Shown piece after piece: positions 476-14,098 of a stretch of DNA of 64,000 nt; positions within the stretch are counted from its first letter, which is position 1; the number at the start of each line of letters is the position of its first letter. Position numbers and translations under genes: made by a program. This DNA is from Halomonas sp. 'Soap Lake #6' (lineage in GTDB: Bacteria > Pseudomonadota > Gammaproteobacteria > Pseudomonadales > Halomonadaceae): positions 1,860,001 to 1,924,000 of the forward strand of contig NZ_CP020469.1 in assembly GCF_003031405.1 (NCBI RefSeq), given 5' to 3'. The notes below the pieces were generated by a model, which saw nothing but the letters and a program-made list of their open reading frames with translations, was not told the origin of the DNA and searched no databases.

Positions 476-2161
476 ATGCATCCAACACGCGTTCAACTTC
501 GTCCCCGTCGCCGTCCACCACTACGCCTACTACCGTTAGGCGGGTGCGGTGAGATTGGAATGAATCTGACGCTGTACGGATACGACGATCAATGGATCGC
601 CGTTGATTGCGGCATGATGATTCGACAAGATTTACCTAATGCTCCGCTACAGGTGCCTAACACGGAAACACTGGAAACACTCAATATCAGGCCCCAAGCG
701 CTCTTTATTACTCACGGTCATGAGGACCATATCGGTGCCGTTGCATGGCTATGGCCTAAGTGGAACTGCCCGATTTATGCAACCCCTCTCGCCGCGGGCC
801 TACTGCGTTTAAAATTTGCAGAGCAACAGCTTAGCAGCGCTGCAATTCATATTATTGAGCCCGGTGATGCGTTGCAGCAGGGGCCATTTACACTGCGCTA
901 CTTGCTACTTACTCATTCCATTCCTGAAAGCTGCGCCATTATGATGATGGCAGGCGACTATCGCATTCTTCATAGCGGTGACTGGAAGCTAGACCCCGAG
1001 CCGCTCATTGGCCCCCCCATGAATGCGGCAAACTTCCGGGCTCTGGCGCCGATCGACTTGCTTGTGGGTGACTCGACCAACGCCCCTATGCCTGGCCACT
1101 CCGGTAGCGAAGGCGATGTGGCCAGAGCACTGGCCAAAACCTTAGAAAAATGCACCGGCCGCGTTGTGGTCTCCTGCTTTGCCAGTAATTTGGCTCGCGT
1201 TCTGGCTATCGGCTTGGCAGCACAGCAGTGTGGCCGCCGTGTAAGCCTCATGGGGCGCTCGATGGAACGCATGGTAAGTGTAGCTAAAGGCCTGGGCTAC
1301 TTAGATAACTTTCCACCGCTGGTGCCACCCCATGATCTTGGCTATTTACCGCCTGAAGAGGTGGTCGTCATTGCCACGGGTAGCCAAGGAGAACCTCGCG
1401 CCGCCTTGCAGCGTTTAGCCCAAGGGCGCCACCCATATATGGATTTAGCGCCTGGCGATAGCGTGATCTTCTCTGCTAAAGCCATACCTGGAAATGAACG
1501 GCCTATCGAGCAACTAAAAAAACGCCTATCTCAGCTTGGTGTTGCTCTTTTTGATGAGATGAATCACCCAGAGCTGCATGCAACGGGCCACCCCGCTCAA
1601 GACGAGCTAAAGAAATTCTATCAGTGGGTCAGGCCAAAATCGCTACTCCCCGTTCATGGGGAAGCACGACATCAGGAAGCGCACCAAGCGCTCGCTGCAT
1701 CATTAGGCATTAATGCCCCTATTGCGCCAATTAACGGCGATATGATTGTTTTCGACAATCAAGGCCTACGCCGCGAGCAGCGCTACCCTCAACCACCCTG
1801 CATTGTTAATCAAAATAGCATTGTCCCTCATCCTGGACTCACTGAGGCAGTTTCCAATGCACGGCGAGGCAGCCTGTTCCTGGCCCTCCCTGTTACCGCT
1901 AGCGAAACAGGCTGGTGGCGTATTGGACGCTTAATGCTTGATGCCAGCAGCACAAGCCCTATAGATGAAGAGAGCTTTAGTGAGTGGCTTGATATGCAGT
2001 TGGAGGAAATTGAAGCAGACACGCTGGCAGATTTGCGTATGGCATTACAGCCTCGGCTTATCCAATGGCTAGCCGACCACTGCCGGCATATGCCAGATGT
2101 GCATTTACAGATAATGGCCGCGGAAATGCCGTCTGCCGAAGAGCTAGAAAATAAGCCTTAA
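476..2161 (+). CDS. rnj: RNase J-like metallo-beta-lactamase ribonuclease
   Basis: A 561-residue member of the RNase J (metallo-beta-lactamase/beta-CASP) family, which combines endonuclease and 5'-3' exonuclease activity on RNA. The zinc motif HGHEDHIGA is at residues 80-88. GDSTNA follows in the beta-CASP region. Near residues 328-342 is SAKAIPGNE, near 367 HATGHPAQDELK, and near 390 LLPVHGE, all RNase J hallmarks. Length is normal (about 550). The start ATG overlaps a TAATG and has only a weak AGG upstream. RNase J is classic in Firmicutes; E. coli lacks it, but homologues occur in several proteobacteria. It ends 13 bp from the convergent moaE, with only a small AACACTT/AAGTGTT palindrome between them. 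Confidence 0.85.
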   Translation: MHPTRVQLRPRRRPPLRLLPLGGCGEIGMNLTLYGYDDQWIAVDCGMMIRQDLPNAPLQVPNTETLETLNIRPQALFITHGHEDHIGAVAWLWPKWNCPIYATPLAAGLLRLKFAEQQLSSAAIHIIEPGDALQQGPFTLRYLLLTHSIPESCAIMMMAGDYRILHSGDWKLDPEPLIGPPMNAANFRALAPIDLLVGDSTNAPMPGHSGSEGDVARALAKTLEKCTGRVVVSCFASNLARVLAIGLAAQQCGRRVSLMGRSMERMVSVAKGLGYLDNFPPLVPPHDLGYLPPEEVVVIATGSQGEPRAALQRLAQGRHPYMDLAPGDSVIFSAKAIPGNERPIEQLKKRLSQLGVALFDEMNHPELHATGHPAQDELKKFYQWVRPKSLLPVHGEARHQEAHQALAASLGINAPIAPINGDMIVFDNQGLRREQRYPQPPCIVNQNSIVPHPGLTEAVSNARRGSLFLALPVTASETGWWRIGRLMLDASSTSPIDEESFSEWLDMQLEEIEADTLADLRMALQPRLIQWLADHCRHMPDVHLQIMAAEMPSAEELENKP

Positions 2162-9981: not shown

Positions 9982-10014
9982 ATCGCCACTCCTTATTGAG
10001 ACGCTAATAATTAG

Positions 10015-10170
10015 GAAGCCTCTGATTAACGTTATGAGCGCAGGCCAGACAAGGCAAAAATCAACGAAAAAGCGCAGTTTACAGGTTGTAAATGAGCATT
10101 TTGATCGGACTCGCGCACGAGGCGATTTTTAACGCAGTATGGTCAAGCGCAATAGTTAATCAGAGGTTTC
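10015..10170. mobile_element. MITE-like element with 16-bp terminal inverted repeats
   Basis: The left end GAAGCCTCTGATTAAC and the right end (inverted) GAAACCTCTGATTAAC match at 15 of 16 bases. The 156-bp body has no convincing reading frame of its own. It is flanked on both sides by TTAG (10011-10014 and 10171-10174), as expected of a 4-bp target duplication. TTAG fits the YTAR duplications I recall for IS701-family elements, but that relationship is inference. No transposase is in the window. Confidence 0.65.
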
Positions 10171-10174
10171 TTAG

Positions 10175-10395: not shown

Positions 10396-10424
10396 TTGAC
10401 AAAAGCACTCCCCATCTTTAGACT
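10396..10424 (+). promoter_or_regulatory. Sigma-70 promoter of the metNIQ leader
   Basis: TTGACA (10396-10401), a 17-bp spacer, then TAGACT (10419-10424). The predicted start, near 10431, lies about ten bases before the riboswitch aptamer. Confidence 0.65.
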
Positions 10425-10441
10425 TTCGCCGCAAATGTAAT

Positions 10442-10511
10442 GACGCCGATTTGTACCCAGATTGCGGGCGTCCACCAAGCCTTTGGCGTGGTGAAGTGCA
10501 GCTAAAAGGGT
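10442..10511 (+). ncRNA. SAM-II-type riboswitch controlling metNIQ
   Basis: The layout matches the SAM-II aptamer, an H-type pseudoknot that binds S-adenosylmethionine. P1 pairs GACGCC (10442-10447) with GGCGTC (10467-10472). The loop carries GATTTGTACCC and ATTGC, as in the family pattern GATTTAACC...ATTGC. The 3' strand reads AGTGCAGCTAAAAGGGT, close to the family's ATGTAGCTAAAAAGGG. GGGT (10508-10511) can pair with ACCC (10455-10458) to close the pseudoknot. An additional hairpin, CACCAAGCC-TTT-GGCGTGGTG (10473-10493), is inserted between P1 and the 3' strand. A promoter precedes it and a terminator follows. SAM-V, a related fold, is the alternative. Confidence 0.75.
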
Positions 10512-10526
10512 GTGTCCAGCGTTGAT

Positions 10527-10554
10527 GGCCACCCGAAAGGGTGGCCTTTTTTTT
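10527..10554 (+). terminator. Intrinsic terminator (riboswitch expression platform)
   Basis: GGCCACCC-GAAA-GGGTGGCC followed by eight T, ending 66 bp before the metN start. An 8-bp GC-rich stem inside the leader of the operon it precedes implies attenuation, with SAM binding upstream expected to favour termination. Its GGGT could also compete for the aptamer's ACCC. Confidence 0.85.
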
Positions 10555-10620
10555 ATTCCTCACCCTGCTCCTGCCTCCTCGCACTCTTCCATCTTCGGCC
10601 TACAATCGAAGGCAGACGCT

Positions 10621-11664
10621 ATGATTGAGCTTAGCAACGTCAGTAAAACCTATGGCAGCGGTAAAAGCGCCGTTTTTGCTTTAAAAGAAGTTAATTTAAC
10701 AATACCTAAAGGCACCATTCACGGTGTCATTGGCCTATCCGGCGCAGGAAAGTCGACGCTAATTCGCTGCGTCAATCTTCTAGAGCGCCCGACAAGCGGC
10801 AGCGTTACGGTGGACGGTCAGGAAATGACCCTATTGAAACGCTCTGAATTAAATCAGGCACGCCATCGTATTGGCATGATTTTTCAGCACTTTAATTTGC
10901 TGACTACACGCACAGTGTTTGACAACGTTGCGCTGCCGCTGGAACTCATGGGGCAGAAACGCGGCGCTATCAAAGAGCGCATTTTACCGCTACTAGAGAT
11001 GGTTGGCTTAGCAGATAAAGCACAACAGTACCCGGCCCAGCTTTCTGGAGGGCAAAAACAACGTGTTGCTATTGCTCGCGCCTTAGCTAGCAAGCCCAAC
11101 GTATTGTTGTGTGATGAAGCCACTTCCGCCCTCGACCCACAAACGACGGGCTCCATTCTCGAACTGCTAAGAAGTATTAATCAGCAGTTGGGTATTACCA
11201 TTTTGCTGATTACCCATGAAATGGAAGTAGTGAAGTCTATTTGCCACCGGGTTAGCTTAATCTCAGATGGCAAATTAGTTGAAGATGCCGAAGTGGGCGA
11301 CTTCTTCACTGCGCCCACCACTCAGCTAGGCCGAGAGTTTCTTAATGATTTCTTGCAGCTCAGCCCACCAAAAGAGCTAATAGAGCGCCTAAGCGACACA
11401 CCAGGCGAGCATACCCACCCAGTGGTACGGCTAACCTTCTCAGGAGATGCAGTGTCTACACCGCTCATCTCGCGCCTTGCCCGTGAGTGCAGTGTTGATG
11501 TGAGCATCTTGCAAGCTAAAGTCGAATCTATCCAAGACCGCACACTAGGCCTAATGATTGCTGAGCTGTTAGGCACCCCCGCTCAAACCCAGAAAGCCAT
11601 GGCTTATTTGGAAGCACACCAATTACAGGTAGAGGTACTCGGTCATGTCCAGCGCAATGTTTAA
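10621..11664 (+). CDS. metN: Methionine ABC transporter, ATP-binding subunit
   Basis: A 347-residue ATPase energising methionine import. Walker A GLSGAGKST is at 38-46, the signature LSGGQKQRVAIARAL from 141, and Walker B VLLCDEATSALDP from 161, with H-loop LLITHEMEVV. From about residue 265 a C-terminal NIL domain follows (VVRLTFSGDAVSTPLISRLA), the methionine-binding regulatory domain that shuts the transporter when cytoplasmic methionine is high. The start is chosen at ATG after GAAGG; an upstream in-frame start would lie inside the terminator. It overlaps metI by 20 bp. Confidence 0.96.
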   Translation: MIELSNVSKTYGSGKSAVFALKEVNLTIPKGTIHGVIGLSGAGKSTLIRCVNLLERPTSGSVTVDGQEMTLLKRSELNQARHRIGMIFQHFNLLTTRTVFDNVALPLELMGQKRGAIKERILPLLEMVGLADKAQQYPAQLSGGQKQRVAIARALASKPNVLLCDEATSALDPQTTGSILELLRSINQQLGITILLITHEMEVVKSICHRVSLISDGKLVEDAEVGDFFTAPTTQLGREFLNDFLQLSPPKELIERLSDTPGEHTHPVVRLTFSGDAVSTPLISRLARECSVDVSILQAKVESIQDRTLGLMIAELLGTPAQTQKAMAYLEAHQLQVEVLGHVQRNV

Positions 11665-12298
11665 CCTTATTTTACAGGCCACGCTGGATACGCTCTATAT
11701 GGTGGCCATCTCAGGAGTAATCTCAACGCTGATCGGTTTACCGCTCGGGGTCATGCTATACGCTACACGCCCACGGCAAATCTTAGCCATGCCGGTACTC
11801 AACCAAGTGCTAGGTATTATCACCAACATTGGGCGCTCCATCCCCTTTATCATACTAATGGTAGCGATCATTCCTTTCACCCGCATGCTAGTGGGCACTT
11901 CTATTGGCATCAATGCTGCTTCGGTGCCGCTAACCATTGCAGCGATTCCTTTTGTTGCGCGATTAATAGAAGGGGCGCTTAACGAGATATCTCCTGGACT
12001 GATAGAGTCGGCGCAATCCATGGGAGCAACTCCTTGGCAAATTATTTGCAAGGTGCTCATCCCCGAAGCAAGAGGCGGTATTATCACGGGTTTAACGATC
12101 ACCCTTGTGACCCTCGTTAGCTATTCAGCCATGGCAGGTGCCGTTGGCGGCGGCGGCCTCGGCGACCTTGGTATTCGCTATGGCTATAATCGCTTCAACC
12201 CCACCATCATGCTTATTACCGTCATCATTCTGGTCGTGATGGTGCAAGGTTTCCAAAGTCTAGGTGATTACTTGGTGCGCAAAAGCGATCGCAAATAA
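11645..12298 (+). CDS. metI: Methionine ABC transporter, permease subunit
   Basis: A 217-residue inner-membrane permease with about five transmembrane helices. The EAA coupling motif reads GALNEISPGLIESAQSMGATPWQII and contacts MetN. NIGRSIPFIILMVAIIPFTRMLVGTSIG is typical of MetI. The C-terminus GGGGLGDLGIRYGYNRFN matches the conserved family end. The start lies inside metN, indicating translational coupling; a second ATG four codons later is possible. Confidence 0.95.
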   Translation: MSSAMFNLILQATLDTLYMVAISGVISTLIGLPLGVMLYATRPRQILAMPVLNQVLGIITNIGRSIPFIILMVAIIPFTRMLVGTSIGINAASVPLTIAAIPFVARLIEGALNEISPGLIESAQSMGATPWQIICKVLIPEARGGIITGLTITLVTLVSYSAMAGAVGGGGLGDLGIRYGYNRFNPTIMLITVIILVVMVQGFQSLGDYLVRKSDRK

Positions 12299-12401: not shown

Positions 12402-13193
12402 ATGAAAAAAGTGATTATCGGCAGCCTCACAGCACTTGCCTTAGCTATTAATGTTGCCAACGCTGAGACACGCACTATCAAAATGGGCACCGTCGCAGGC
12501 CCAGAAACAGAAGTAATGGAAGTAGCGGCTCGAATTGCTAAAGAAGAGTTCGGCCTGAACGTCGAGATTATTGAGTTCACCGATTATGTCACCCCCAATG
12601 CTGCCTTAGCCGACGGCAGCCTCGATGCCAACGCTTATCAGCACGAGCCATACTTGCAGGCCATGGTCAATGATCGTGGTTACGATCTCGCCATTGCAGG
12701 CTACACGTTCGTTTACCCCATTGGCGCTTATTCCGAGAAGTACGACAATATCGACGACCTGCCGAATGGCGCGCAAATCGCATTGCCCAATGATCCATCT
12801 AACGAAGGGCGTGCGCTAATTCTTATGCACAACAAGGGGCTAATCACGCTTAACGACCCTAGCAACCTGGAAGCAACACCCATTGATATTGCAGAGAACC
12901 CGCGCAATTTCCGCTTCCGCGAAATTGAAGCAGCACAACTGCCCCGCGTTTTGCCTGATGTCGACCTTGCCTTCATCAATAACACCTTTGCCCAGCCAGC
13001 CGGCCTTCACTTGGATGACGCACTAATTAAAGAAGGCCCGGAGTCCCCCTACGTTAACTTGATTGCCGTACGTGGAGGCGATGAGGATCGCGAAGAAATC
13101 CGTCAACTAGTGGATGCTTACCAGCGCGATGAAGTTATCGAGAAAGCCGAAGAACTGTTTAAAGGCGCCGCAGTTCCTGGCTGGATTGAGTAA
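12402..13193 (+). CDS. metQ: Methionine-binding periplasmic protein MetQ
   Basis: A 263-residue NlpA-family substrate-binding protein. A signal peptide runs to about residue 22 (ALALAINVANA), and the mature protein begins ETRTIKMGTVAGPE. Family motifs include VEIIEFTDYVTPNAAL, DANAYQHEPYL, IALPNDPSNEGRALILM and LAFINNTFA. There is no lipobox cysteine, so unlike E. coli MetQ it should be a free periplasmic protein cut by signal peptidase I. GGAG lies seven bases before the start. A 103-bp gap follows metI; no terminator is visible there, so it probably shares the riboswitch-controlled transcript. Confidence 0.94.
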   Translation: MKKVIIGSLTALALAINVANAETRTIKMGTVAGPETEVMEVAARIAKEEFGLNVEIIEFTDYVTPNAALADGSLDANAYQHEPYLQAMVNDRGYDLAIAGYTFVYPIGAYSEKYDNIDDLPNGAQIALPNDPSNEGRALILMHNKGLITLNDPSNLEATPIDIAENPRNFRFREIEAAQLPRVLPDVDLAFINNTFAQPAGLHLDDALIKEGPESPYVNLIAVRGGDEDREEIRQLVDAYQRDEVIEKAEELFKGAAVPGWIE

Positions 13194-13845: not shown

Positions 13846-13922
13846 TGGTAGGACCAGGCGGATTTGAACCGCCGACCTCCACGATGTCAACGTGGCGCTC
13901 TAACCAACTGAGCTATGGTCCT
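13846..13922 (-). tRNA. tRNA-Val (anticodon GAC), copy 1
   Basis: A 77-nt cloverleaf. The acceptor AGGACCA pairs with TGGTCCT, the D arm is GCTC/GAGC, the anticodon stem CCACG/CGTGG holds loop TTGACAT, and the T arm is GGCGG-TTCAAAT-CCGCC. CCA is encoded. Identical to copy 2. Confidence 0.96.
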
Positions 13923-13983: not shown

Positions 13984-14024
13984 AATGGTTACACATAATT
14001 GGCCTAATGGTTACACATAATTGG
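13984..14024. repeat. 19-bp direct repeat between the tRNA-Val genes
   Basis: AATGGTTACACATAATTGG occurs at 13984-14002 and again at 14006-14024 with a 22-bp period. The second copy runs into the 3' end of tRNA copy 2. It is probably a small local duplication. Confidence 0.85.
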
Positions 14025-14098
14025 TAGGACCAGGCGGATTTGAACCGCCGACCTCCACGATGTCAACGTGGCGCTCTAACCAACTGAGCTATGGTCCT
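14022..14098 (-). tRNA. tRNA-Val (anticodon GAC), copy 2
   Basis: Same 77-nt sequence as copy 1, with CCA encoded. It is the first gene of the tandem pair, directly after a good promoter, and the two are presumably processed from one precursor. Confidence 0.96.

Follow-up and report, generated by a model that had tools for sequence, protein, structure and literature searches.

Organization of the metNIQ leader

The genome of Halomonas sp. 'Soap Lake #6' is a single contig of 4.80 Mb, within which lies the 64,000-nucleotide stretch of DNA analyzed here (the window). In this window, a leader with its own promoter and terminator precedes the methionine import genes metNIQ. The features are as follows:

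10396..10424, + strand: sigma-70-type promoter, TTGACA-17-TAGACT (sequence and consensus scan)
10442..10447, + strand: P1 5′ strand, GACGCC, pairing with 10467-10472 (Rfam SAM_alpha places P1 here)
10448..10453, + strand: L1, GAUUUG, presumed to supply the third strand of a SAM-binding triplex
10454..10458, + strand: P2a 5′ strand, UACCC, in a presumed pseudoknot with 10508-10512
10462..10465, + strand: P2b 5′ strand, UUGC, presumed to pair with 10501-10502 and 10504-10505 in the pseudoknot (matching the Rfam consensus)
10467..10472, + strand: P1 3′ strand, GGCGUC (pairing compared across loci)
10473..10493, + strand: inserted hairpin P3, CACCAAGCC-UUU-GGCGUGGUG, flush on P1 (pairing and both-side changes)
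10494..10497, + strand: remainder of loop L3, AAGU (A-A-R-U; alignment of loci)
10498..10512, + strand: P2 3′ strand, GCAGCUAAAAGGGUG, with U10503 and A10504-A10506 as the presumed SAM pocket
10508..10534, + strand: predicted antiterminator, GGGUGUGUCCA-GCGUUGA-UGGCCACCC (folding energies)
10527..10554, + strand: intrinsic terminator with 8-bp stem, GAAA loop, and eight T (terminator scan; pattern across loci)
10621..11664, + strand: metN, methionine ABC transporter ATPase (TIGR02314 MetN, 472.7 bits)
11645..12298, + strand: metI, permease (NCBIfam NF008049 MetI, 251.7 bits, above cut-off)
12402..13193, + strand: metQ, substrate-binding protein (NCBIfam TIGR00363 MetQ/NlpA, 278.2 bits, above cut-off)

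The promoter, SAM-II-type core, extra hairpin, and terminator with eight T that the original prediction had placed between 10396 and 10621 are all found in the sequence at these positions. The promoter boxes (TTGACA at 10396-10401 and TAGACT at 10419-10424) are separated by a 17-base spacer; the consensus scan found one promoter-like site where shuffles lead one to expect 0.2, and a similar TTGACA was seen by eye 5′ of several orthologs. The aptamer (10442-10512) is short and of the pseudoknot type, with P3 inside it, and its core reads as DNA GACGCC/GGCGTC (P1), GATTTG (loop), TTGC, and the 3′ strand AGTGCAGCTAAAAGGGTG. The extra hairpin, predicted with 9-bp arms, is CACCAAGCC-TTT-GGCGTGGTG as DNA, in which eight of the nine arm positions are paired and one is an A·G mismatch. 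The perfect 8-bp terminator with its eight T is likewise present (GGCCACCC-GAAA-GGGTGGCC); shuffles give 0.5 such sites, and taken alone, it is not beyond chance. The fold of the whole leader is only modestly better than that of shuffled sequences (z −1.95, with 6 of 200 shuffles equally good). The start of metN lies 109 bases past the end of P2a (10512), with the terminator between them, and the best NCBIfam match of metN, TIGR02314, falls below that model's cut-off of 499.7 bits.

Two neighboring features were also observed. A 161-base element with inverted ends (10013-10173) lies in the gap that separates the metN promoter from the gene for riboflavin synthase. It recurs in the genome as two nearly complete copies, of 99% and 88% identity, and as one 40-base fragment, and it looks like a small mobile element. 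Two tRNA-Val (GAC) genes are located on the minus strand at 13846-13922 and 14022-14098.

Response of standard RNA family models

At the gathering level, Rfam reported two tRNAs only in the whole window and nothing at the leader, and at E ≤ 10 over 1.2 kb, it returned five families, the best with E values of 0.36 and 0.48, all far below their cut-offs. When applied to the aptamer alone, SAM_alpha gave 10.1 bits (E 3) against a cut-off of 36 bits, which is a search threshold. Its alignment covers P1, GAUUUG, and UUGC and then ends, the 3′ strand lying beyond the inserted hairpin; the leader is hidden from the standard family search by the extra hairpin. Across the host genome, SAM_alpha had nine weak matches, none at the leader and none above the cut-off. 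Because weak matches were also obtained in 14/14 control genomes, such genome scores carry no meaning. The Rfam SAM_V model found nothing in the host genome at E ≤ 10, so the covariance search proposed in the original prediction yielded no significant score for either family on the window.

Conservation of the leader within the family

The pattern TTGC-(12-42)-GYAGCTAAAAGGG, in which the search demanded G-Y-AGCTAAAAGGG, was found at 112 places in 111/275 family genomes, against 12/275 genomes for a reversed control pattern (our own count from the table). L107, one of these places, matches by chance. By tblastn, which was applied without L104, L108, and the G272 locus, metN lies downstream in 108/109 loci; the exception is L107, leaving 108/108 true loci. 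Because of this excess over the control and the position of the true loci before metN, the leader is conserved beyond chance. The start of metN lies a median of 119 bases from the core.

A single parse (GAUUU, UUGC, GCUAAAA) fits 109 of 110 true loci, L048 having been left out of this set. Among the 109 parsed loci, L1 reads GATTTG in 107 and GATTTA in 2, and the CCC of P2a is present in all. TTGC and GCAGCTAAAAGGG are invariant in 109/109 as well; both had been demanded by the search pattern and by the parse, so that an unchanging UUGC or GCUAAAA, being partly imposed in this way, is no test. Broader recovery came from a covariance model, R1, for which 28 of the 33 distinct aptamers carrying a 22-base insert were used and which therefore matches the window by construction. 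R1 matched 232/275 family genomes and 20/24 genera (E ≤ 0.001), a count that takes in genomes whose match is an ordinary P3-less SAM-II. The loci found with the covariance model keep GCTAAA, and the preceding letters can vary (e.g., ACCGCTAAA and ACTGCTAAA; L131, L378, and L379).

The terminator pattern is kept in 107/111 family loci (missing in L018, L036, L048, and L111), and 96/111 share an identical 24-base stretch running from the core up to the terminator loop. The stretch joining aptamer and terminator (10513-10526), including the loop GCGUUGA, is conserved more than pairing needs.

Pairing in P1, P3, and the pseudoknot

The inserted hairpin provides the clearest comparative signal. In 83 distinct inserts of 19-43 bases, 589/664 end-anchored positions were paired, whereas swapping the arms among sequences (2,000 shuffles) gave 401 (sd 11, maximum 438). 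This rules out the hairpin as a chance product, with a margin that is too generous since related inserts are counted as independent; the changes on both sides of P3 and the MetN tree (below) weigh more than the shuffle test. In a gap-free alignment of 28 rows, changes on both sides occurred at 9/9 hairpin positions and 89.7% of cells pair. On this comparative evidence, the extra hairpin is a real structure whose sequence changes freely while its pairing is kept.

In the same alignment, P1 has one covarying pair, and its second pair is A-U, G-C, or G-U depending on the locus. No covariation was detected for the pseudoknot among the 28 rows: 7/9 pairs are invariant, and the two that depart, both in P2a, do so by unpaired cells only. 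Where P2a strands have changed, those of L390 (TTCCC/GGGAA) are still complementary and those of L054 (TTCCC with GGGTG) are not. Of the covariation that was to be looked for in homologous leaders, the pairing of P1 and of the hairpin is therefore borne out, and the pseudoknot letters are too invariant to tell. P3 sits flush on P1 in 91/109 loci and is followed by A-A-R-U in 109/109 parsed loci; the parse imposed the last three of these letters but left the first A free.

P3 persists in 13 genera and its pairing is under selection, so it might serve as a second input, e.g., a contact site for a protein or RNA, with the leader integrating SAM and another signal. A binding site would be expected to keep its letters, and here the sequence, the loop, and the length (19-43 bases) are all free; we therefore regard this as unlikely and favor a structural role for P3 within a SAM-II aptamer, as set out below.

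Relatives without P3 and the origin of the hairpin

A short loop occupies the position of the hairpin in the metN leaders of six genera (g4, g9, g10, g11, g18, and g23). Ten such P3-less metN loci were found, five of which (L383, L384, L389, L391, and L392) keep the downstream GGGTGTGTCCAGCGTTGA platform and the terminator, with an A-U rather than a G-C outer terminator pair. In L386, L387, L390, L396, and L397, no terminator was present in the 75 bases read. Rfam listed 7/7 P3-less leaders as SAM_alpha (E ≤ 1), 3/7 above the cut-off (47.8, 38.4, and 36.9 bits) and the others below it (29.6, 27.8, 25.4, and 23.1 bits). In a MetN tree of 38 family and two Legionella rows, the 29 hairpin rows, from 13 genera, lie on one side of a single branch; the support of this branch is moderate (88/54, and 88% of bootstrap trees), and the root is a midpoint root. 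Genus g21, L124, and the alphaproteobacterial-type L364 and L365, whose MetN matches were missing or short, are not in this tree. One gain of P3 would suffice on the MetN tree, with the moderate support just given. Because the P3-less leaders score as SAM_alpha and one gain suffices, the best reading of the leader is a descendant of SAM-II that gained a helix. The original prediction had treated the inserted hairpin as an oddity; its presence in 13 family genera and its recurrence elsewhere in the class speak otherwise.

A leader of the same kind, with a very short hairpin and the same terminator, was observed in genus g21 (L385, L393, and L395); no metN was found by tblastn in the g21 loci L385, L393, L395, and L399. 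At L388, the MetN match covers only 100 residues.

SAM-II (RF00521, SAM_alpha or metA motif) and the leader have in common P1, the GAUUU/UUGC/GCUAAA core, the presumed H-type pseudoknot, and a putative terminator-based OFF switch before methionine genes, and some P3-less metN leaders pass the SAM_alpha cut-off. They differ in that the leader carries P3 between P1 and the 3′ strand, targets metNIQ, and goes unrecognized by the model. P3 is absent from SAM-II according to the consulted parts of PMC6061858, whereas in the leader it is present and covaries; therefore, we call the leader a variant of SAM-II and not a plain member.

The presence of P3 also raises the question of whether the leader is a SAM-V riboswitch (RF01826), a SAM-II relative with a P3 hairpin after P1. 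The core of SAM-V superimposes on SAM-II, and its P1 is followed straight away by the P3 stem-loop and then by stacked adenines that lie in the P1 groove (PMC6061858), an order matched by P1-P3-AAGU in the leader. However, SAM-V is translational, with a 3-bp P3 and a short P2a that takes up and thereby hides the Shine-Dalgarno site, whereas the leader has a terminator between aptamer and gene and lacks any SAM_V match at E ≤ 10. In addition, metN leaders that lack P3 receive SAM-II scores, and a single acquisition of the helix inside the family is enough. We consider a SAM-V assignment very unlikely and retain descent from SAM-II.

Proposed mechanism of metNIQ control

In gammaproteobacteria, the usual SAM-responsive repressor is MetJ. 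No MetJ was found in the host genome or in any of the 121 family genomes searched (the E. coli control was positive), which makes the original remark that gammaproteobacteria usually rely on MetJ sharper than it was. The leader would explain how methionine import is controlled in a gammaproteobacterial family without MetJ. Conservation, the pairing of P1 and P3, the gene context, the kinship with P3-less SAM-II, and the terminator are established by the comparisons above. From these, we infer the pseudoknot, SAM as the ligand, the switching between folds, and what P3 does. Very probably, metNIQ is shut off by early transcription termination through a SAM-II riboswitch that has acquired P3. After the comparative tests, the original interpretation fits best: a SAM-II-type aptamer carrying an inserted hairpin, with metNIQ under terminator control.

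In the proposed fold, P1 and the inserted P3 accompany an H-type pseudoknot (P2a, UACCC/GGGUG; P2b, UUGC/GC-U-AA). Bound in a triplex of GAUUU with P2b, SAM would keep the 3′ strand of this pseudoknot in place. At low SAM, GGGUG would instead pair with CACCC, which forms the terminator's 5′ arm, and polymerase would continue into metNIQ. When SAM is plentiful, GGGUG would be locked in the pseudoknot, leaving CACCC free, so that the terminator (GGCCACCC/GGGUGGCC) could form and the methionine import genes would fall silent. P3 may act as a scaffold beside P1, as P3 does in SAM-V. The antiterminator and terminator are mutually exclusive. The antiterminator has a predicted energy of −10.6 kcal/mol alone and −12.0 kcal/mol in a transcript ending in the terminator loop; in a longer transcript, the terminator folds (−22.0 versus about −13 kcal/mol for the antiterminator at equilibrium). 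Because the terminator wins at equilibrium, the ON state must be kinetic. A comparable layout was seen by eye in other SAM-II-like leaders of the class, in which GCUAAAG is accompanied by a downstream CUUUAGC overlapping the terminator, and judged by eye these leaders may switch likewise.

The numbering of the SAM-II base triples was carried onto the leader through what we take to be the crystal sequence. On this numbering, the letters of G8-G42-C23, U11-A45-U21, and U12-A46-U20 are all present in the leader and match the Rfam consensus. These triples bind SAM in SAM-II (PMC3764141), and termination by a SAM-II leader has indirect experimental support from Sinorhizobium metZ (PMC9373788). Different sulphur metabolites could control a methionine importer, and the core might have drifted to another ligand, such as SAH or methionine; with the triple letters unchanged, and SAM-II being unresponsive to SAH or methionine (PMC1273637), there is very little to recommend this over SAM. 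A constitutive attenuator with only a coincidental likeness to an aptamer is hardly credible: although the terminator does appear in the optimal fold of the full leader, a promoter lies directly upstream and the aptamer is conserved before metN across the family.

Distribution beyond the family

A 2014 survey with Rfam profiles placed SAM_alpha in Rhizobiales and Rhodobacterales only, in the consulted parts of PMC4239095, and SAM-II in gammaproteobacteria had already been mentioned (PMC2704228 and PMC2258182). The original prediction described SAM-II as mainly known from alphaproteobacteria; SAM-II-like RNAs are not rare here, R1 having matched 158/369 class genomes at E ≤ 0.01 per genome. In the order, 85/390 genomes were matched at E ≤ 1, many of these matches being weak and due to chance, and in the phylum, 43/398 at E ≤ 0.01. 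Among the class matches listed, a large majority of those from outside the family span 50-58 bases and thus lack P3; in other classes of the phylum, 19/20 genomes have matches of 44-57 bases, the exception being a weak 75-base match. P3-bearing loci were recognized by eye in seven other families of the class (L147, L149, L173, L192, L193, L195, L196, and L197). As for target genes, a P3-bearing SAM-II-like RNA lies directly 5′ of a MetN-like gene in L246, L276, and L222 (two Legionella species and a bin named Tatlockia), and ordinary SAM-II-like RNAs lie upstream of a MetN-like gene in L364, L365, and L366, from another class of the phylum.

When species genomes were scanned for a P3-sized insert followed by GCTAAAG, at least 117 stretches were obtained. 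The 80 titles listed were mainly Burkholderiales and other betaproteobacteria, together with two Legionella species. Of the 117 stretches listed, 115 have an insert whose fold is better than the average for shuffled versions of that insert, and 109 have A-A-R-U. One of the stretches, L250, was rejected as a false P3, its insert containing an ordinary SAM-II 3′ strand. The genes that follow are metX (83), metZ (8), and metN (4), with 22 unlabelled; the labels rest on short protein motifs, and several of the unlabelled stretches come from contig ends. Rfam SAM_alpha recognized 2/20 loci with SAM-II-like RNAs and 0/18 further loci from the species-genome scan.

This distribution recalls the orphan metXZ element of betaproteobacteria, which occurs before metX in 30/35 genomes and before metZ in a few, and which was described in 2014 as a new element, without a ligand, comprising a stem, a pseudoknot, and a terminator (PMC4239095). 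Compared by description, the two share taxa, a predominance of metX with few metZ, a stem with pseudoknot, and a downstream terminator. Given this agreement in taxa and target genes, the metXZ element and the P3-bearing SAM-II RNA are probably one and the same; if so, SAM is the likely ligand of this orphan betaproteobacterial element.

The leader is one member of a population largely overlooked by the standard model and not a new class. We think it rather likely that P3-bearing SAM-II forms a large beta- and gammaproteobacterial subclass, mostly unseen by that model, which bridges SAM-II and SAM-V, a SAM-V-like P3 having been inserted once in a Halomonadaceae-like metN leader and probably separately in betaproteobacteria (the metXZ element). 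If this is true, SAM-II and SAM-V would be one family with an optional helix. The metN leaders themselves show an added helix entering a minimal pseudoknot aptamer in front of one gene, with both forms extant; since forms with and without P3 are alive, the effect of P3 on affinity and folding is directly measurable. That a standard SAM-II search misses many such RNAs in two large groups indicates that methionine regulation is under-annotated there.

In the literature searched, nothing joined SAM-II, riboswitch, and Halomonas, and no SAM-II before metN was reported in this group. The same search returned no P3 in SAM-II, with the proviso that alignments or figures in PMC1273637 (which includes a Bordetella sequence) and PMC4239095 may show an insertion. 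Known tandem SAM-II/SAM-V and tandem SAM-II arrangements (PMC9481103 and PMC2704228) resemble the leader in SAM-II termination but add a second SAM aptamer; tandems exist in the family too (L177, L398, and L402), whereas the metN leader has one aptamer. Tandem ordinary SAM-II-like aptamers were observed in L177, L398, L400, L402, L154, L161, L162, and L202, from the family and other families of the class, with the first aptamer before a terminator and the second nearer the start codon, an arrangement that is known (PMC9481103). At L151, a SAM-I riboswitch (1169-1282, minus strand; 81.5 bits, above the Rfam cut-off) lies less than 3 kb from a SAM-II-like match in the same genome.
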